A program made the translations under genes and the position numbers. This document shows positions 25,093 through 63,609 of a DNA stretch of 64,000 nt, piece after piece. Every line of letters starts with the position of its first letter. Within the stretch, counting starts at the first letter, position 1. The notes under the pieces are model-generated. The model did no database searches, was not told the DNA's origin, and saw only the letters and a list, made by a program, of their open reading frames with translations. Location: contig NZ_JAMXEX010000017.1 of assembly GCF_025370775.1 (NCBI RefSeq), forward strand, positions 1 to 64,000, given 5' to 3'. Source of the DNA: Ancylothrix sp. D3o. Its GTDB lineage: Bacteria; Cyanobacteriota; Cyanobacteriia; Cyanobacteriales; Oscillatoriaceae.

Positions 25093-26979
25093 TTAAAAAT
25101 CTAATTCAAAGTTATTGTCTGTTTCGTCGTTGTCTTCTCCATCATCAAGAAAGTTATTTTCTAGGTCGGTGGGCTTATAGTCGGTTGTGGTTGTGTATTG
25201 GATGGGTGTAGTTACGGCTGCTACTTTGGGGAGGGGGTTGCTAATTTCTCTGCCGTTGAAGGTTTGGATTAGGGTTTGTATGGCGGTTTCTAGGGTTGGT
25301 TTTTCGCTGGGGATGTTGTTGGCAACTGCGGAGTTACTGGTTGTTTGGTTTTGAGGGGGGGCTGTGTTTACGGGGTTTGGTTGGGGTGTGGGTGGGCTTT
25401 GCGGGGGCGGTTGGTTGTTTTCGGGTGGGGGGGTTGGTTCCTTTGTGGTGGTGGTGGAGGCGCGGGCGACGCTGAGGCGGATGGTGATTTTTTGTTGGAA
25501 GATTTGCGAGAAGGCTTGTTCGAGGTTGGGGATTCCTGGCTGAACCATACTGAGTAATGTTTGGTTTTTGATGGTGATACAAGCAATATTTTGATCAAGG
25601 CTGATTAGGCATCCGTGATCTTTAAGGAGGGATCTTTTTGGTATGTCTAGTTGAGCGAGTACACGATGCCATACTTCATCGAGGTTGCTGTTTGTTGGTA
25701 TGGGTTGGGGTGTGGGTGTGGGTTGGGGTTGGGGTGTGGGTGTGGGTTGGGGTGTAGGTGGTTGAGAGGTTGCGTCGGAACGTTTGTACTCTGTGGGTTG
25801 GGGTTGGGGTGTGTAGGTAGGTTGGGGTTGGGGTGTGTAGGTAGGTTGGGGTTGGGGTTGGGGTTGGGGTGTGTAGGTGGGTGGGGGTGTGGGGGTTTGG
25901 AGGAGTCCCAGGAGGGTGAGTTCTAACCAGAGACGGGGTTGGGTGGTGTTTTTGATTTGGGTTTCGCTTTGGCGGAGGTGTTGTTGGCCGGCGATGATTT
26001 TGTCAAGTGTCCAGTTTTGGACAAGTTGACAGATTTCTTGCCAGGTGGGTGGTGTGACGGCTACGAGGTCGTTGCGGTTGGGGGCGGTTTTGGCGATGAG
26101 GAGGTCGCGGTAAAAGCCGGCTAGGTTTTGTAAGAGGATGAGGGGTTCTCTTCCTCGGTTCATTATGTTTCTGGCTTGGGTGAGAATGTCTTCGGGTTTT
26201 TGGCTGTTGATGGCTTGTAGGAGGGTGATGAGGTCTCTTTCGGGGACGGCGCCGACGAGATCCCAGACTTTTTCTGGGGTGATGGGGGGGATGAGGAGGC
26301 TGAGTTGATCGAGGAGGCTTTCGGCGTCTCGGAGTCCACCTTGGGCTATTTGGGCGATGAGGGTGAGGGCTTCGTTTTGAATTTCTATGTTTTCTTTTTG
26401 GGCGATGTCTTTGAGATGGTTTGTCATGGCGTCTAGGGGGATGCGCCGAAAGTCAAATCTTTGACAGCGGGAGATGATGGTGGGAAGGACTCTTTGGGGG
26501 TCGGTGGTGGCTAGTATAAATACGACGTGAGATGGTGGTTCTTCTAAGGTTTTTAGTAGTGAGTTGAAGGCTGCCGTACTCAACATATGGCATTCGTCCA
26601 CTATATATACTTTTGTTCTACATTGTACGGGTGCGAATTGGGCTTTTTCGATGAGTTCTCTGATGTTGTCTACGCCGGTGTTGCTGGCGGCGTCGATTTC
26701 GATTATGTCTAGGGAGTTGCCGAGGGTGACGGTTCGGCAAACTTCGCAGGTTCCGCAGGGGGTGTCTGTTGGGTTGGGGCTGTTTTGGCAGTTTAGGGAT
26801 TTGGCGAGGATTCGGGCGCTGGAGGTTTTGCCGGTTCCTCTTGGGCCGGTGAATAGGTAGGCTGGGGCGATTCTGCCGGTGTGGATGGCGTTGATTAGGG
26901 TTGTGGATATGGCGTCTTGTCCGATTAGGTCGGCGAAGGTTTGGGGCCGGTATTTGTGGTGTAGGGGTTCGTAGGTCAT
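25093..26979 (-). CDS. dnaX: DNA polymerase III subunits gamma/tau
   Basis: 628 residues. It is the clamp-loader ATPase of the replisome. Seen: Walker A FTGPRGTGKTSSA, a Cys4 zinc module (Cys64, 75, 78, 81), VYIVDECHMLS (Walker B), the SRC sensor QRFDFRRI, and LRDAESLLDQL. After ~residue 365 comes a long low-complexity linker of PQPQPT and TYTPQPQP repeats, then a conserved patch (DEVWHRVLAQLDIPKRSLLKDHG) and a second Pro/Thr/Asn-rich region ending in an acidic tail. The linker DNA forms a G-rich repeat on the other strand. No intein is present. The start MTYEPLHHKYRPQTFADLIGQ is canonical. Confidence 0.95.
   Translation of the reverse strand: MTYEPLHHKYRPQTFADLIGQDAISTTLINAIHTGRIAPAYLFTGPRGTGKTSSARILAKSLNCQNSPNPTDTPCGTCEVCRTVTLGNSLDIIEIDAASNTGVDNIRELIEKAQFAPVQCRTKVYIVDECHMLSTAAFNSLLKTLEEPPSHVVFILATTDPQRVLPTIISRCQRFDFRRIPLDAMTNHLKDIAQKENIEIQNEALTLIAQIAQGGLRDAESLLDQLSLLIPPITPEKVWDLVGAVPERDLITLLQAINSQKPEDILTQARNIMNRGREPLILLQNLAGFYRDLLIAKTAPNRNDLVAVTPPTWQEICQLVQNWTLDKIIAGQQHLRQSETQIKNTTQPRLWLELTLLGLLQTPTPPPTYTPQPQPQPQPTYTPQPQPTYTPQPQPTEYKRSDATSQPPTPQPTPTPQPQPTPTPQPIPTNSNLDEVWHRVLAQLDIPKRSLLKDHGCLISLDQNIACITIKNQTLLSMVQPGIPNLEQAFSQIFQQKITIRLSVARASTTTTKEPTPPPENNQPPPQSPPTPQPNPVNTAPPQNQTTSNSAVANNIPSEKPTLETAIQTLIQTFNGREISNPLPKVAAVTTPIQYTTTTDYKPTDLENNFLDDGEDNDETDNNFELDF
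25690..25890. repeat. G-rich TTGGGG/TGTGGG repeat tract inside dnaX
   Basis: The plus strand reads as irregular repeats of GGTTGGGG and GGTGTGGG, including several consecutive TTGGGG units at about 25845-25870. It encodes the PQPQPT linker of DnaX on the minus strand. Four or more runs of G4 within a short distance are the pattern of a G-quadruplex. Confidence 0.85.
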
Positions 26980-31265: not shown

Positions 31266-34241
31266 CTAGGCGGTAGGATGACAACCGTTGATGATAAAAG
31301 CTGCCCAATAATAGGGGTTTGCGTAAGGTTGAATGTTTGCCGGTTGTTTGCTAGTTCTATTTATAGCATCTTCTACGGCTTTCTGAGTACGGTAGGGTTC
31401 GGTTTTTAATTCGGTTTCTAGGCTTTGATAAAATTGGTGGATGTCTTGCCAAGTTTGATTTTGCAGCCAGGTTTTTGCTTGGGCTAAGGCGATGGTTTCG
31501 GGTTGGGTTTCCCGCAGTTCATAAAATTTAACCATCATTAGCATTGAGGCTTCTTCGGGGACTCGCCAAAGGGTGGTGAGAATGTAGGGGATGCGGTGTT
31601 TTAAAAAGGCGCTGACTAAGCCTACATAGTCAATTTTAATTTCTTCTTTGGTGATGGCGGTTTCGCAGGCGGAAAGGGTAACAAGATGGGTGGTTTCTAG
31701 GGGAATTTTGCTGATTTGTTCCAGGGTGAGTTCGTCGTTTTCTGCGAGATATAAGCAGGATTTTTTGGGTTGATAAAAGTCGTGTCCTGCGTGGCAAGTG
31801 AAGTGTAAAATATCGTGGTTTTTTTGCAGTTCTGGGATGATGTTATTTGCGGTGGCATTGGCTTCGGAAATGCGTTTTGAGGTGGGAAATTTTCGGCAAA
31901 TGCTTGCGGACTCAATGGGGGCAAAACGGAGGTCTTTTGTGGGGTTTTCTATACAGAGGATATGGTTGGGGTTTGGGTTGGGGGTGCGGAGGTTTTTGCC
32001 GGTTTGGAGGCTGGGAAGTCGGGTAAGGTGGTAGGGGGTGGGAAAGAGAGTTTCTAGGGGGAGGTTGTGTAAGTCTCGGTGGGGAATGAGGATGAGGTTG
32101 GAGATGTTTTGTAGGTGGTTGAGGAGGGTGGGGATGTTGAGGAGGTTGGCGAGTTGGCTGATTTTTTCTGGCATTTGTTGTCGCCAGGGATGGTTTTTGT
32201 TTTCTTCTTCGGTTGTGTCTTGTTGTTTAGTTTTGGGTAGGTTGCAATAGTTTTGATATTCGGTTTTCCAGTTTTTTATCCAGGTTTCGAGGGTGTCAAT
32301 TTCTGGGGTTGTTTCTAATAGGATGGGTTCGGGTTGGTTGGCTTTGAGGATAAAGGTGGTGAGGCTGTATTGGCTTTGGTGCCAATAGATAATGGCGGTG
32401 GTTTCTGTCAGCATTTGCTGCATTTGTTGCCATGTGGGACTGAGGGTGGTTTCTTGGTAGGTGTCGAGTATCCAAGTCAGGTAAATATTTTTGTCGGTTT
32501 CGGCGGTTTGGATGGCTTCGATGGGGAGGTTTTTTTGGATGAGAATATCAACGCGGAGTTGACGTATTGACCAGAATTTTTCGTAGAGTTGTTGTTTTTT
32601 GTAGGAGGAAATTGGTTGATTGAGTAAGGTTTGCAAAACTTGTAGTCCTTGGAGTTGGTATTTTTCGGCTTGGGTGGTTTCTTGGAGTTGCAATAAGAGG
32701 GGAATTAATTCTTGGAGGACTTTTAAATGTTCTTCGGGATAGCCGGTTTCTGTAAGGGTTTGTAAGGCAGTTTCATAACTGTTTTTGGCTTGATGAATGT
32801 AGGTTTTTTGTTGCAGTTCGCGTCCCCGATTAAATTGAGCAATACCCATTGCGTAATGTAGCATTCCCCAGCCGAGGGGGTGGGTGTCTTGGGGACAGTT
32901 TTTTATGCCTTGTTGATAGTTGGCTATTTCTCCCTCATAGCCGGCTTTGTTGAGGTGGGAGTAATGGGTATAAAAGAGTGCGTTTGATCCAATATTTGTG
33001 GTGAAAGTTAATAGGGTTTCTCGGTTTATAAGGCCGACAACTTGACCTCGCATTAGCCAGGCTTCGTGAAAGTCAGGTTGAATAGCAATGGCTTGGTTAA
33101 AAGAGTCGATGGCTTCTTCATACCGGCCTAATTTTGCTTGCGAAACACCCCGGTTATTAAAGGGTTGGTGAAAGTCAGGTTGAATAGCAATGGCTTGGTT
33201 AAAAGAGTCGATGGCTTCTTCATACCGGCCTAAATTATTTTGCAAATTACCCCGGTTATTAAAGGCTTCGTGTTTGTCAGGTTGAATAGCAATGGCTTGG
33301 TTATAAGAGTCGATGGCTTCTTCATATCGGCCTAAATTATTTTGCGAAATACCCCGGTTATAAAAGGCTTCGTGTTTGTCAGGTTTAATAGTAATGGCTT
33401 GGTTAAAAGAGTCGATGGCTTCTTCATACCGGCCTAATTTTGCTTGCGAAACACCCCGGTTATAAAAGGCTTCGTGAAAGTCAGGTTGAATAGCAATGGC
33501 TTGGTTATAAGAGTCGATGGCTTCTTCATACCGGCCTAAATTAGCTTGCAAAATAGCCCGGTTATAAAAGGCTTCGTGATCGTCAGGTTGAATAGCAATG
33601 GCTTGGTTTAAAGACTCGATGGCTTCTTCATATCGGCCTAACTTATCTTGCGAAACAGCCCGCAAAGAAAAGGCTAAGTAATTGTCAGGTTGAATAGCAA
33701 TGGCTTGGTTTAAAGACTCGATGGCTTCTTCATACTCTCCCCGCCTAAATTCATCATAACCTCGCACTAACCACGCTTTAACCTCAGCATTTTTTCCGCC
33801 AGTTTCTAACCCATTTCCTCTAAATTCTGCATCAATCACCGGCCACTCTTCCTCCGGCGGCGGGGGTAATTGTCCCGTAATTTTCTGGCCAATTTTTAGG
33901 GCAATTTGTCCAATTTCATCATCACAAAGATTGCCAAATTTTAGCAACCGGCCCGCAATTTCTGCATGATTTTCTGGGGTTTCTAATAATCTTTCGCCAA
34001 AGCGTTGTAACCAGGCGGTTAAATGTTGTTTGTTGACGGTTGTTAAATAGGCTTTAATATACCCGCGTCCCATTCCTCGGTTTACGCCGTCGAGTGTTTC
34101 TAAAAATTGGGTTTCGTATTCGATGTCGGTGAGGGGTGGTAGTTCGGTTTTGGGTTTGGCTGGGGGTGGCGGTGGGGTTTGGTTTTTGCCGAAAAGGTTG
34201 CGGATGAATGTGAGGATTTTTTGCCAAATTTTGCGAAACAT
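31266..34241 (-). CDS. TPR-CHAT caspase-like protease
   Basis: 991 residues. In order: a basic amphipathic N-terminus (MFRKIWQKILTFIRNLFGK), a Pro linker, a ~90-residue domain shared with the TPR protein at 27309, seven nearly identical TPRs (~150-390, unit HEAFYNRGVSQAKLGRYEEA), a degenerate helical repeat region (~400-620), and a C-terminal CHAT domain (~670-990). The Cys-His dyad is present: His817 in HFTCHAGHD and Cys859 in VTLSACETAI. CHAT proteins are separase/caspase-like proteases; TPR-CHAT members act in conflict systems (e.g. Csx29 of Craspase). It is the first gene of a three-gene operon. The TPR array probably senses a trigger or holds a partner. Confidence 0.92.
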   Translation of the reverse strand: MFRKIWQKILTFIRNLFGKNQTPPPPPAKPKTELPPLTDIEYETQFLETLDGVNRGMGRGYIKAYLTTVNKQHLTAWLQRFGERLLETPENHAEIAGRLLKFGNLCDDEIGQIALKIGQKITGQLPPPPEEEWPVIDAEFRGNGLETGGKNAEVKAWLVRGYDEFRRGEYEEAIESLNQAIAIQPDNYLAFSLRAVSQDKLGRYEEAIESLNQAIAIQPDDHEAFYNRAILQANLGRYEEAIDSYNQAIAIQPDFHEAFYNRGVSQAKLGRYEEAIDSFNQAITIKPDKHEAFYNRGISQNNLGRYEEAIDSYNQAIAIQPDKHEAFNNRGNLQNNLGRYEEAIDSFNQAIAIQPDFHQPFNNRGVSQAKLGRYEEAIDSFNQAIAIQPDFHEAWLMRGQVVGLINRETLLTFTTNIGSNALFYTHYSHLNKAGYEGEIANYQQGIKNCPQDTHPLGWGMLHYAMGIAQFNRGRELQQKTYIHQAKNSYETALQTLTETGYPEEHLKVLQELIPLLLQLQETTQAEKYQLQGLQVLQTLLNQPISSYKKQQLYEKFWSIRQLRVDILIQKNLPIEAIQTAETDKNIYLTWILDTYQETTLSPTWQQMQQMLTETTAIIYWHQSQYSLTTFILKANQPEPILLETTPEIDTLETWIKNWKTEYQNYCNLPKTKQQDTTEEENKNHPWRQQMPEKISQLANLLNIPTLLNHLQNISNLILIPHRDLHNLPLETLFPTPYHLTRLPSLQTGKNLRTPNPNPNHILCIENPTKDLRFAPIESASICRKFPTSKRISEANATANNIIPELQKNHDILHFTCHAGHDFYQPKKSCLYLAENDELTLEQISKIPLETTHLVTLSACETAITKEEIKIDYVGLVSAFLKHRIPYILTTLWRVPEEASMLMMVKFYELRETQPETIALAQAKTWLQNQTWQDIHQFYQSLETELKTEPYRTQKAVEDAINRTSKQPANIQPYANPYYWAAFIINGCHPTA
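33060..33750. repeat. 102-bp coding repeats (TPR array of the CHAT protein)
   Basis: About seven 102-bp units (34 codons) stand in tandem. Blocks such as AGGTTGAATAGCAATGGCTT and GGCTTCTTCATA recur almost unchanged in each. Units differ by only a few bases, which points to recent amplification or gene conversion. Confidence 0.85.
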
Positions 34242-34279
34242 TGCGGGGGTTTGGGGGGTGGTTTTTTGGATGATTATAG

Positions 34280-34456
34280 CACCGATTAAAATCGGTGATT
34301 ACATGAAGAAAACCCCTCCGGGGTTAGGAGGGTTGCCGGTTTTGTGTGGGGTTGGGATGGTTGGGGTTTTTTGTTAAAGTTTCATAACCCCCGGAGTTTC
34401 GACAAGCTCAACTACCAAGGGGGTTTATTTCGTGTAGACGCCGGTTTTAACCGGTG
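34280..34456. repeat. cluster of short intergenic hairpins
   Basis: Within 180 bases upstream of the CHAT gene lie ACCGAT-TAAA-ATCGGT (34281-34296), AACCCC-TCC-GGGGTT (about 34311-34325), CCCCC...GGGGG around 34388-34425 and GCCGGTT-TT-AACCGGT (about 34441-34455). The region has no gene of its own. It must also hold the CHAT promoter. Confidence 0.6.
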
Positions 34457-34474
34457 ACGGCGGGGGTTAAGAAT

Positions 34475-34592
34475 GCCGGTGGTTGTGGGTGCCGGTGGTT
34501 GTGGATGCCGGTGGTTGTGGGTGCCGGTGGTTGTCGGTGCCGGTGGTTGTGGGTGCCGGTGGTTGTGGGTGCCGGTGGTTGTCGGTGCCGGC
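34475..34592. repeat. 16-bp tandem repeat, about eight copies
   Basis: GCCGGT recurs at exactly 16-base spacing (34475, 34491, 34507, 34523, 34539, 34555, 34571, 34587) within the unit GCCGGTGGTTGTGGGT and close variants. Since 16 is not a multiple of three, the frame rotates and gives a 16-residue protein repeat. It runs straight into the pentapeptide gene. Confidence 0.95.
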
Positions 34593-34998
34593 ATTGGCAG
34601 AAAATCCTGCTGATGTCAAAAGGTTGCTAGAAACGAATCTTTGCGCTGGGTGTAATTTGGCCGGTGCTAATTTGAAAGGCACTCATATTATTGGGGCTGA
34701 TCTGCGGGGTGCAAATTTGGCAGGGGCTAATCTGGAATCTGCAAATTTAGAAGGTGCGGATCTGCGCGGGGCTAATTTAGAGAGCGCAAATTTACGCAAT
34801 AGTTATTTAAATAGTGCAGAATTGACGAATGCAAATTTAGCATTTAGTTTGTTAAGTGGCGCAGATTTACGCGGAGCAAGTTTGGTAAATGCTAATTTGT
34901 TGCGAGCAGATTTACGGGGGGCGGATGTGGTGCGAGAAACGTTGGCTGGGGCAAATTTGGAGCGGACTATGTTGCCGACGTCTGTGCGTTTGCAATAG
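34483..34998 (+). CDS. pentapeptide-repeat protein with repeat-derived N-terminus
   Basis: The conserved part begins at VPALAENPADVKRLLETN, which looks like the end of a signal peptide (ALA) and the mature start of a common cyanobacterial secreted pentapeptide protein with a Cys pair (LCAGCNL). About 20 A(D/N)Lxx repeats follow, forming a right-handed beta helix (GADLRGANLAGANLESANLE). Upstream of ALA no normal signal peptide exists; the frame instead runs through the 16-bp repeat (VPVVVDAGGCGCRWLS), with only GTG or TTG as starts. The true start is uncertain. Either the export signal was overwritten and the gene is dying, or a repeat-encoded hydrophobic leader replaced it. Confidence 0.75.
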   Translation: MWVPVVVDAGGCGCRWLSVPVVVGAGGCGCRWLSVPALAENPADVKRLLETNLCAGCNLAGANLKGTHIIGADLRGANLAGANLESANLEGADLRGANLESANLRNSYLNSAELTNANLAFSLLSGADLRGASLVNANLLRADLRGADVVRETLAGANLERTMLPTSVRLQ

Positions 34999-35129
34999 GG
35001 CTTTAGGGTTTGGGTTTTTTCTGCTTTTTCTAATTTTTGCCTGAAGCTTAGATATTTTTTAATGGGAGTTTTTTAGCAATTTTAATATTAAAAAATAGGT
35101 TGGGTATTTCAGGACAAAAGGAGAGGTTA

Positions 35130-35213: not shown

Positions 35214-35657
35214 TTACATGAGCATTTTTTTAGGTCTTCCCCCTTTTTTACCATTTTCCCGCGCCGCCTTTGCTTTAGCAGGAGAAGTTATTTCTCCTCC
35301 CTTTTTCCCTAGCTCACTCATCCAAACTTTTGTTCCAAAAATGCCGGCTACCAATTCAGGAATACCGAAATCAACATCTAAACTTTCCCAGTGAATGCTA
35401 CTCCCAGAAGCCGATATCCAAATATCAGCTAATTGCTCAGGAGTCGCATCTCTTAAACCCTGTCCAAGTCGAGGTGGAAAGCTGAAAATAGCTCCATTTT
35501 TTAGGCGAATAACGATTAAATCATTCGCCACATCATAACCGGCAGACTCGGCGCGAATTTCCGTAGCATCGACTTCTTTGCCGGCTTTTTTAGCTCTAGC
35601 AATTTCTGAAGCTAAATTTTCCTCAGTAAACTCAAATTCCCAGTTAGGATGTGCCAT
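35214..35657 (-). CDS. DUF2442 protein
   Basis: 147 residues. The core DVANDLIVIRLKNGAIFSFPPRLGQGLRDAT and HWESLDVDFGIPELVAGIFG is the DUF2442 fold. N-terminal charged helix, C-terminal basic tail (AARENGKKGGRPKKMLM) that looks nucleic-acid binding. Its start overlaps the end of the DUF4160 gene by 14 bases, so the two are translationally coupled. DUF4160-DUF2442 pairs are common and mobile in bacteria and look like toxin-antitoxin modules, though I know of no firm activity for this one. Confidence 0.82.
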   Translation of the reverse strand: MAHPNWEFEFTEENLASEIARAKKAGKEVDATEIRAESAGYDVANDLIVIRLKNGAIFSFPPRLGQGLRDATPEQLADIWISASGSSIHWESLDVDFGIPELVAGIFGTKVWMSELGKKGGEITSPAKAKAARENGKKGGRPKKMLM

Positions 35658-35922
35658 GTATTTTTTGCCATTTCCTCAATAAAGTTTCTCGATGTGCCGT
35701 TACTAACTTGAGTGCCGCCGGTATGATATGTTTATTTTCCATATCGTCCCTGTCATTCACTACAGAAGGTATTTCCATTTGATTGCCGATATTTATCTTC
35801 ACCTCCTTTTGATTGCTATCATTTTTCCTACCTTTAAAAACATGAACATGAGCCGGTACATGGTCATTTGTGTAAATATATACAAAAAGATTGTTTTCCA
35901 AATCTTCGAGAACTTTGGGCAT
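35644..35922 (-). CDS. DUF4160 protein
   Basis: 92 residues. NNLFVYIYTNDHVPAHVHVFKG is the stereotyped start of DUF4160 (H-x-PAHVHV), followed by KEVKINIG and a C-terminal helix (AALKLVTAHRETLLRKWQKIH). It is the first gene of a two-gene unit with DUF2442. The His-rich motif could bind metal. Toxin-antitoxin function is inferred from gene pairing only. Confidence 0.82.
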   Translation of the reverse strand: MPKVLEDLENNLFVYIYTNDHVPAHVHVFKGRKNDSNQKEVKINIGNQMEIPSVVNDRDDMENKHIIPAALKLVTAHRETLLRKWQKIHGTS

Positions 35923-36872: not shown

Positions 36873-38198
36873 TCACTCACCCTTAACATCCTCAACAGAA
36901 TCATCAGGCAACCGGCTAACCATCACCTTATCCACCCGATTACCATCCATATCCATCACCTCCAACCGTAACCCATTCCACTCAAAATTATCAGCAGCAG
37001 TAGGAATTCTACCCAACTGCGTAATCACAAAACCACCCATCGTATTATAATTCCGCTCGTGTGCCTCACCAATTTTTGACCTATCAAACAACTCAAAAAA
37101 ATCCTCAACCGGCAACATCCCATCAAGCAACCAAGAACCATCATCCCGCTGAACAGCCATCGGTTCCTCCGGCTCATAAATCGAAGGAATATCCCCCACC
37201 AACTCAATCAAAATATCATTAACCGTAACCAAACCTTGAATTACCCCATACTCATCAACCACCAAAACAATATGCGTACTCGACTGCTTAAAAGACTCCA
37301 AAACCTTCAAACCCCGCGTACTTTCTGGCACAAACAAAGGCCGACGCAAAAGAGTAGTTAAATCCAAAGAATCCCCAGACAAAGCCCGCGATAACAAATC
37401 CGTCACCTGCACCACACCCAAAACATTATCCAACTCACCCTGACAAACCAGCAAACGCGAATGAGCACTCGTAATCATCTTTTGCCGGTTTGCTTCCGCC
37501 GAATCCTCCAAATCTAACCAGACAATTTCCGGGCGGGGCGTCATCAAAGCACTCACCGGCCTATCACCCAAACGCAACACCCGCTCAAACATATCCTGTT
37601 CCGCCTCCTCAAAGGTACCCGCCTCCGTACCTTGCTCAATCAAAACCTTAATTTCCTCCTCAGTAACCTGCGGTTCCGTAGAAGGTTTAATCCCCATCAA
37701 CTTCACCACCACATCCGTCGAATAACCCAAAAATTTCACCACCGGCGAAGTAATTTTTGCCAACATTCGCATCGGGAAAGCCACCACAGAAGCAATCGGT
37801 TCAGCATTATTCAAAGCCAAACGTTTTGGCACCAACTCCCCAACAATCAACGTTAAATAAGTAATCAATAAAACCGCAATAATCGTCGCAATTGTCTCAC
37901 TATACTTTTCCAGAGCCGGAATCCGCTTCAACACCGGCAAAACCATTTTTGAAAACGTCGATTCCCCAAACGCACCCGACAAAATCGCCAACAAAGTAAT
38001 CCCGACCTGAACCGTCGGCAAAAACATATTCGGAGCATTGGCCAACTCCAAAGCCCAACGAGCCTTTCTATCCCCTTGATTCGCCAATTGTTGTAGGCGG
38101 GCCTTCCGCGCCGAAACAATCGCCATCTCGGACATCACAAACACACCATTTGCCAAAATCAGCAGAAAAACTATTAAAATTTCAACAGGTGGAGACAT
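36873..38198 (-). CDS. CNNM/CorC-type membrane protein (hemolysin-family)
   Basis: 441 residues. DUF21 membrane domain with three to four helices (residues ~1-185; NGVFVMSEMAIVSARKARLQ), then a CBS pair (~205-330; VSALMTPRPEIVWLD, STHIVLVVDEYGVIQGLVT) and a C-terminal CorC_HlyC domain (~350-430; NYNTMGGFVITQLGRIPTA). The family exports or regulates Mg2+ and other divalent ions; the old name hemolysin is misleading. The gene is alone on the minus strand. A stretch of short direct repeats lies just upstream. Confidence 0.9.
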   Translation of the reverse strand: MSPPVEILIVFLLILANGVFVMSEMAIVSARKARLQQLANQGDRKARWALELANAPNMFLPTVQVGITLLAILSGAFGESTFSKMVLPVLKRIPALEKYSETIATIIAVLLITYLTLIVGELVPKRLALNNAEPIASVVAFPMRMLAKITSPVVKFLGYSTDVVVKLMGIKPSTEPQVTEEEIKVLIEQGTEAGTFEEAEQDMFERVLRLGDRPVSALMTPRPEIVWLDLEDSAEANRQKMITSAHSRLLVCQGELDNVLGVVQVTDLLSRALSGDSLDLTTLLRRPLFVPESTRGLKVLESFKQSSTHIVLVVDEYGVIQGLVTVNDILIELVGDIPSIYEPEEPMAVQRDDGSWLLDGMLPVEDFFELFDRSKIGEAHERNYNTMGGFVITQLGRIPTAADNFEWNGLRLEVMDMDGNRVDKVMVSRLPDDSVEDVKGE

Positions 38199-38556
38199 TA
38201 GAAATTAGGAATTAGGAATTAGGAATTTGCCATTTGTCATTTGTCATTTGTCATCTGTCATTTGCCACAGACAAAAAACAGGCAGACCAAAGAAAAAGGA
38301 CAATCGTACAAAGGACAATTGACACTAAATTAACATTTTTTCTCAAAAATTGAATATCTCAACTTATGGCCCCTACCGGCCACAACCACCCAAGAGCAAC
38401 CATGAGTATAATCTAAAAAAAAAGCCCCAAATCAAAGCAGACAAACGAATACAATCTCTCCACCTCATCTAAAAATAAACGCCGATTCAGCAAAATCTAT
38501 GATAAAAGCGTAAATATGGGAGAACCCGCCCCTACATCCAAAATCAACAAAGTCTC
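38199..38556. other. intergenic region with short direct repeats
   Basis: ATTAGGA-type units (GAATTAGGAATTAGGAATT) and then CATTTGT units repeat several times at 38203-38262, a pattern typical of cyanobacterial intergenic heptamer repeats. The rest, up to the mfd start, shows no gene. Promoters for two divergent genes must lie here. Confidence 0.65.
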
Positions 38557-62592: not shown

Positions 62593-63609
62593 ATGAAACG
62601 TTCTCATCTATCAAAAACTGTTTGGGCCGGCGCTTTTGCCTTAAGTTTGGGTATTGCATCCTTCACAATGCCTGCTAGTTCTCAAACCGGCGGCACCGGC
62701 GGCGGTACAAGCGGCGGTGCGGCAGGCACAACCGGCTCTGGCGTAACAGGCGGCACCGGCACGGGTACTGGTACAGGCACGGGTACAGGTGCAGGCACAA
62801 CCGGCGCTGGCGTAACAGGCGGCACCGGCACTGGATACGGCACCGGCACAGGTACAACCGGCACGGGTGCAGGCACAGGTACAACCGGCACTGGATACGG
62901 CACAGGTACAGGTACAACCGGCACTGGATACGGCACCGGCACAGGTACAGGTACAACCGGCACGGGATTAGGCACCGGCACGGGATTAGGTACCGGCACT
63001 GGATTAGGTACTGACACGGGTGCAGGCACAACCGGCACAGGTACAGATACGGGTACAGGCACAACCGGCACCGACTTCGAGACTGACACGGGTGCAGGCA
63101 CAACCGGCACGGGTACTTCTGGGGTTAACTCCACAGGTTCCTATACCACAACCCCAACAACGCCGGGGGGTACAGGCACTACGACAACAACTCCAAGCGG
63201 CATAGATTCTACGACGACAACGCCGGAGATCACGGGCACTACCACAACAACTCCAAGTGGCATAGATTCTACGACGATAACGCCGGGGAGCACTACCACA
63301 ACAACTCCAAGCGGCATAGATTCTACGACGATAACGCCGGGGAGCACTACCACAACAACGCCCAGCGACGCCGGTTCTACGACGATCATTGAGCGGACAA
63401 CAACAACTACAACAACTCCCGCCACCGTAACGCCGGTGCCAAGCAGCACAACAACTGTGGCGCCTTATGAAAGTACAAGAGGCGTGACAAGGAATCGTCA
63501 TTCCAATTGGGGATCGTTGGGTTTATTGGGCTTAATTGGGTTGGCTAATTTGTTCCGTCAGCCGAAAACCACAGTCCGCCCGGCGAAAACAACAGTCCAC
63601 CATCATTAA
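62593..63609 (+). CDS. Gly/Thr-repeat surface protein with WGxxGxxG C-terminus
   Basis: 338 residues from ATG 62593 (signal peptide [20 protein letters not shown]... to ASSQ). The mature part is a long run of [18 protein letters not shown] units, then [13 protein letters not shown] units, both encoded by near-perfect DNA repeats. It ends with [17 protein letters not shown] and a basic tail [11 protein letters not shown], the WGxxGxxG-type C-terminal anchor found on secreted cyanobacterial proteins. Function as an outer-surface or sheath component is inferred from the repeats and anchor. Confidence 0.85.

Follow-up and report, generated by a model that had tools for sequence, protein, structure and literature searches.

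A second copy of an apparently exported pentapeptide-repeat protein gene in Ancylothrix sp. D3o carries a 16-bp tandem repeat at the place where its relatives encode a signal peptide. This copy lies in the 64,000-nucleotide stretch of contig NZ_JAMXEX010000017.1 analyzed here (the window), and we read it as a duplicate that probably lost its start, the core of its signal peptide and its upstream sequence, so that the final four residues of its signal peptide now adjoin a 16-bp minisatellite bordering a palindromic element. As far as sequence comparison can tell, the locus is confirmed as an unusual case of repeat DNA standing in for the signal peptide of a duplicate under constraint.

The array occupies positions 34474–34591 of the forward strand and consists of seven full units of TGCCGGTGGTTGT(G/C)G(G/A) (34474–34585) followed by the six bases TGCCGG (34586–34591); Tandem Repeats Finder reported a period of 16, 7.4 copies, 95% matches, and a score of 215. 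The initial annotation, which had described a 16-bp repeat running straight into the end of a signal peptide, was thus right about the feature (the array runs into PALA/ENPADV), while its count of eight copies and its first base, 34475, each needed a small correction. It had also assigned all the residues quoted at the junction to the signal peptide: judged by the paralogue and the relatives, PALA does belong there, and ENPADVKRLLETN is already mature protein. Identity at a lag of 16 was 0.948 over 96 bp, against maxima of 0.417–0.479 in five mononucleotide-shuffled windows, which excludes a chance origin. Units vary at just two positions, their last bases being, in order, GGG, GGA, GGG, CGG, GGG, GGG, and CGG, and units 2–4 are one base apart from units 5–7, which suggests that the simplest last step may have been a 48-bp in-frame duplication. 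All three frames of the array are open, each a rotation of one 16-residue repeat except at variant bases, as had been proposed. The gene frame is open over 34471–34998, reading ...RWLSVPALAENPADVKRLLETN..., and the body frame on leaving the array reads RWLSVPALAENPADV. Two-tier G-quadruplex motifs were found five times in the array and three-tier ones not at all.

The array was missing from the 59 other relatives searched. Allowing one mismatch, the 16-mer occurs at 17 places in the genome, seven in the array and ten outside; the ten carry one mismatch each and include no second array of the doubled unit, all six genomic matches of which lie inside 34474–34591. Kinship with G-rich repeats on contigs C2, C18, C27, C7, and C3 was considered and rejected: their periods are mainly divisible by 3, so these arrays look like coding repeats and not like copies of the unit. 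The window holds several other repeats, namely a perfect 12-bp repeat, TCCTTGCTGAAT, at 601–658 (4.8 copies), dense G-rich or C-rich repeats at 25693–25891 (inside the minus-strand ORF 25093–26979) and at 62722–63419, and, at 38197–38264, heptamer arrays of ATTAGGA (4.4 copies) and ATTTGTC (5.7 copies) that abut the start codon of the minus-strand ORF 36873–38198.

Downstream of the array, the mature protein and stop codon span 34603–34998 (+), on the evidence of a Pfam match and of alignment with the paralogue. The body matches the pentapeptide-repeat family PF00805 (E 3.1e-28, 97.4 bits, cut-off 20.2) and, by sequence, PDB 2F3L (E 5.7e-9), i.e., Rfr32 of Cyanothece 51142 (PDB 2F3L, 2G0Y), for which the available part of the source gives an N-terminal signal peptide of 29 residues (PMC8145042). 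Rfr32 shares the PF00805 body with the window copy, and the relatives of the window copy bear a signal peptide as Rfr32 does, unlike the window copy itself, where the repeat stands in its place. A paralogue encoded on contig C13 of this genome (C13:73985–74419) starts normally and has MKSLILKAAVVALTTLGAMPALA as its signal peptide; the two copies are sisters in a tree of 40 proteins (support 0.994). A HAD-type gene lies ~0.7 kb before the C13 copy and, at ~67% identity, beside the orthologues in three other genomes (G002, G007, and G005), which makes C13 the site of the positional orthologue and leaves the window copy as the extra one.

A recognizable signal peptide was present in 63/63 of the other relatives examined, the C13 paralogue included. 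In a first set it was found at 39 of 40 loci, with the window copy as the exception, and in a second set at all 24; as some organisms may recur under different collections, the two sets are not strictly separate. These calls come from simple rules on hydropathy, Lys/Arg, and start codon rather than from a trained predictor, and in the first set the rules flagged 38/40 loci, the unflagged ones being L049, which has a signal peptide beginning with GTG, and the window copy. The second set came from a search of 388 genomes of the order, 93 of which had a match at E ≤ 1e-28; among the 24 new loci read, no second copy without a signal peptide was seen. Alignment with relatives bearing a normal signal peptide, the check put forward in the initial annotation, therefore bears out its claim that the repeat replaced the signal peptide region, as does the homology with C13 at the DNA level, which starts inside the last partial repeat. 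We take the window copy to derive from an exported Rfr32-like type, and do not file it as an exported member.

The junction itself is sharp. Homology with the C13 copy starts exactly at 34586, with the TGCCGG of the last partial unit, and the stretch 34586–34602 (+) encodes the retained signal-peptide end (P)ALA and the first mature residue; the C13 counterpart of the junction, aTGCCGGca, encodes M-P-A of its signal peptide. No homology was detected between the sequence upstream of the array and the 600 bp upstream of C13 (score 27, shuffled mean 28.2; 184/300 shuffles as high), nor past the stop codons of the two copies (26 vs a shuffled mean of 27.4; 189/300 as high), as expected at their divergence. 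Nor did a search of the sequence before the array detect any trace of the original signal peptide. The window contains 156 occurrences of the word TGCCGG where 19.4 are expected, an 8-fold excess (both strands, array counted), so direct repeats of it would be common seeds for slippage. The shorter GCCGG occurs 417 times against 69.9 expected (both strands).

On the other side, the array is separated by a 17-bp spacer (34457–34473), which contains an in-frame stop for the gene frame (TAA, 34468–34470), from a dispersed palindromic element at 34280–34456. This element consists of inverted GTAG-type palindromes (34280–34297 and 34434–34456) that face each other; the right one, GTAGACGCCGGTTTTAACCGGTG, has an intact GTAG tag, which the left arm does not. 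At ≤2 mismatches, the right arm matches 33 sites across this genome but no site in any of 59 others, paired arms recur at several genomic loci, and the stretch folds better than 200/200 dinucleotide shuffles (z −3.0). Within the limits that Table 1 of PMC3733652 gives for GTAG-tagged palindromic repeats (REPs; stem 5–13 bp, loop 2–20), of which 24 families have been published, the element carries the tag at a single end of its short palindrome, and its many dispersed copies, often dimers, are as expected of this class. In the parts of that source available, such REPs occur in cyanobacteria, and the element shares with them the one-end tag, the short palindrome, the tag-inside inverted dimers, and the many copies. 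It differs in its tandem arrays of unrelated units on the outer edge and in the lack of a Y1 transposase (PF01797: 0 matches in the 95.7% complete draft; the control was positive in 5/14 named genomes). Since some host species of GTAG-tagged repeats are without a Y1 transposase (PMC3733652), this lack is compatible with membership.

Tandem arrays were found ≤110 bp outside element ends at 8 of 31 sampled ends compared to 5 of 276 control pieces (Fisher p 4e-6; 7/30, p 2e-5, when the window locus is left out), a contrast that may be inflated because the control pieces, taken from the same loci, were chosen without regard to intergenic position; the loci for the 31 ends were picked for their resemblance to the window element. 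Of the eight arrays, two are weak, with scores of 43 and 54, CCGG occurs in the unit of 4/8, and one other element copy, L137, bears GAATGCCGGTGG on its outer edge. The window array is best read as one of several that may have grown at the edges of this palindromic element. In the available text on BrickBuilt of Porphyromonas gingivalis, a minisatellite is similarly tied to a dispersed inverted-repeat element; its 23-bp repeat sits inside the element and is always intergenic (PMC4596501), whereas the window array lies beyond its element and extends into a gene. As a separate observation, the same element at locus L165 (G000:C9, ~184258) has a 23-bp array, TTAACCGGTGGCTATTTAACTGT (4.9 copies), on its outer edge, and this array repeats part of the element's own arm. 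The minus-strand gene beside the element in the window (31266–34241) encodes a TPR-CHAT protein (CHAT domain E 2.4e-35), with a 102-bp tandem repeat (6.6 copies, 89% matches) specifying the TPRs, and on the far side of the pentapeptide-repeat gene the overlapping minus-strand DUF2442 and DUF4160 genes (35214–35922) form a putative toxin–antitoxin-like pair.

Taken together, these features point to the following course, in which the order of events is our inference, the genus being represented by one genome, Ancylothrix sp. D3o. The gene would have arisen by duplication of one encoding an exported cyanobacterial pentapeptide-repeat protein, and its original start, signal peptide core, and upstream region would since have gone, leaving the minisatellite on the outer edge of the GTAG-tagged element adjoining the retained PALA. 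The array may have grown via slippage or unequal recombination between copies of TGCCGG, one seed presumably being the TGCCGG of the M-P-A codons, and this growth may have deleted the signal peptide, recently relative to the duplication. Translation, if any, would begin at a GTG or TTG inside the array, and the predicted product would have a repeat-coded hydrophobic leader before the retained ALA/EN site, with export probably weakened or lost. Alternatively, the junction could have arisen when a truncated duplication landed beside a pre-existing array.

That the gene is newly dead, i.e., that with the loss of its start, signal peptide, and upstream sequence its expression ended recently and decay is too young to show, is a serious possibility, which we hold to fall somewhat short of probable. 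It agrees with the complete loss of upstream homology with C13 and with the promoter scan, in which no sigma-70-type promoter was found on the gene strand over 34150–35120 (one on the other strand, 1.2 expected), the scan working by consensus and covering cyanobacterial promoters only partly. It also agrees with the leader itself, which offers no in-frame ATG ahead of the mature part and, unlike in relatives, no array start with Lys/Arg within five residues. Against it stand an array that is open in every frame and a body that shows constraint. Over 132 shared codons, the window and C13 copies differ by 56 synonymous and 15 non-synonymous changes (dS 1.133, dN 0.052, omega 0.046, a rough estimate as dS is near saturation). 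Polarized with six outgroups, the changes (synonymous/non-synonymous) fall 24/7 on the window branch and 21/7 on the C13 branch, with 12/0 unassigned, and the window copy body contains no stop or frameshift. A single in-frame 30-bp gap, absent from the nearest outgroups, makes the window copy 10 residues shorter than C13. Had the whole branch been unconstrained, ~170 non-synonymous changes would be expected, compared to 7 observed (upper 95% limit 13.1); even if all seven are taken as neutral, the unconstrained share would be, as a rough estimate, at most ~8%. As visible decay, the earlier suggestion of a dying gene is thus not supported, given the low omega, the equal numbers of amino acid changes on the two branches, and the intact frame, while a very recent death is possible. 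Either the signal was lost recently or the window gene may still be working.

If the gene still works, its start would probably lie in the array or at its edges. The longest ORF by first listed start, a TTG, has 171 aa (34483–34998, +), and 11 in-frame GTG/TTG codons are available (34483, 34489, 34495, 34501, 34531, 34537, 34543, 34549, 34579, 34585, and 34594). Their anti-Shine-Dalgarno energies range from −2.7 to −7.0, compared to −7.0 for the C13 start and −9.8 for an ATG at 34473. As random positions in the window often reach such energies (5% reach −8.2 and 1% reach −11.3), no candidate start is compelling.

One possibility is that the repeat has taken over as a functional signal peptide, with the hydrophobic segment VPVVVGAGG, an Arg, and the old AXA cleavage site; we consider this unlikely, an export function of the array leader being possible but not supported. 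The leader reaches a peak hydropathy of 1.71 over 11 residues, above the cut of 1.6, and the ALA/EN cleavage site survives, differing from that of C13 only synonymously. Yet the relatives listed reach 1.89–2.95, no start has Lys/Arg in residues 2–6, and the Arg lies 9 residues before the cleavage site; no array start passes the combined hydropathy and Lys/Arg test that 24/24 relatives pass. Hydropathy of the leader was also rejected as a sign of selection: 44% of 5000 shuffled stop-free units of the same composition were equally hydrophobic, so that it is best seen as a by-product of G + T richness.

A cytoplasmic version, starting at GTG 34585 (MPALAEN...) or TTG 34594, is about equally doubtful. 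GTG 34585 sits at the position of the C13 ATG (the M of AMPALA) and has the same anti-Shine-Dalgarno energy, −7.0, as the C13 start; against this, G-rich sequence often yields such energies, a level of −8.2 being reached at one in twenty random positions, and all 63 relatives are of exported types.

Less likely again, in our estimate, is that the REP-edge minisatellite has become the new N-terminus of a selected gene, supplying a start and a leader at any copy number and reusing the old cleavage site. In each 16-bp unit, GGTGG resembles a ribosome-binding site, GTG/TTG codons are available, and all three frames yield a hydrophobic segment.

We regard as very unlikely that the array is a phase-variable switch, in which 16-bp slippage would move the ATG at 34473–34475 (+) in and out of frame. 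The comparison that suggests itself is with the opa genes of Neisseria, which in the available parts of the sources have CTCTT repeats in the leader (PMC3960869, PMC3899988), i.e., a tandem repeat at the signal-peptide end whose length is no multiple of 3, so that copy number can shift the frame. The opa repeat is 5 bp long, whereas the window array is a 16-bp minisatellite with its own GTG/TTG codons, known from one assembly. An opa-like frame-shifting repeat between start and mature protein would fit ATG 34473, which has a G-rich stretch upstream (GCGGGGG, 34460–34466), the strongest anti-Shine-Dalgarno pairing among the candidates, and a unit length not divisible by 3 behind it. At the assembled seven units, however, this ATG is out of frame and its reading ends at TGA 34611 after 46 codons; it enters the gene frame only at unit multiples of 3, i.e., at 0, 3, 6, or 9 units, the best-supported past change was of three units and thus in-frame, and its pairing energy is reached by ~1–5% of random positions. 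The proposal that each change of one unit shifts the frame is thus only partly supported. It holds for a start outside the array, but GTG/TTG codons inside it serve all frames, and as long as any unit is present an in-frame one is available, which makes an on/off switch less plausible.

Finally, although the draft assembly is split into 142 contigs, an artefact joining two places at the repeat is likewise very unlikely, since the confinement of the doubled unit to this locus leaves no second array as a joining partner and 118 bp fits an ordinary read length.

Overall, a probable loss of start, signal peptide core, and upstream sequence next to an element-edge minisatellite remains our preferred reading, and the titles and abstract beginnings listed by searches of an open-licence library contained no description of such a case. 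Here, the export signal of a conserved gene appears to have been replaced by intergenic repeat DNA, and the intact C13 paralogue offers an internal control within one genome. Should the repeat-led copy be produced, it would illustrate how repeat DNA can furnish a gene with a start and a leader, and the retargeting of a duplicate would become directly testable; if it is not produced, the locus would document gene breakage by arrays at REP edges.
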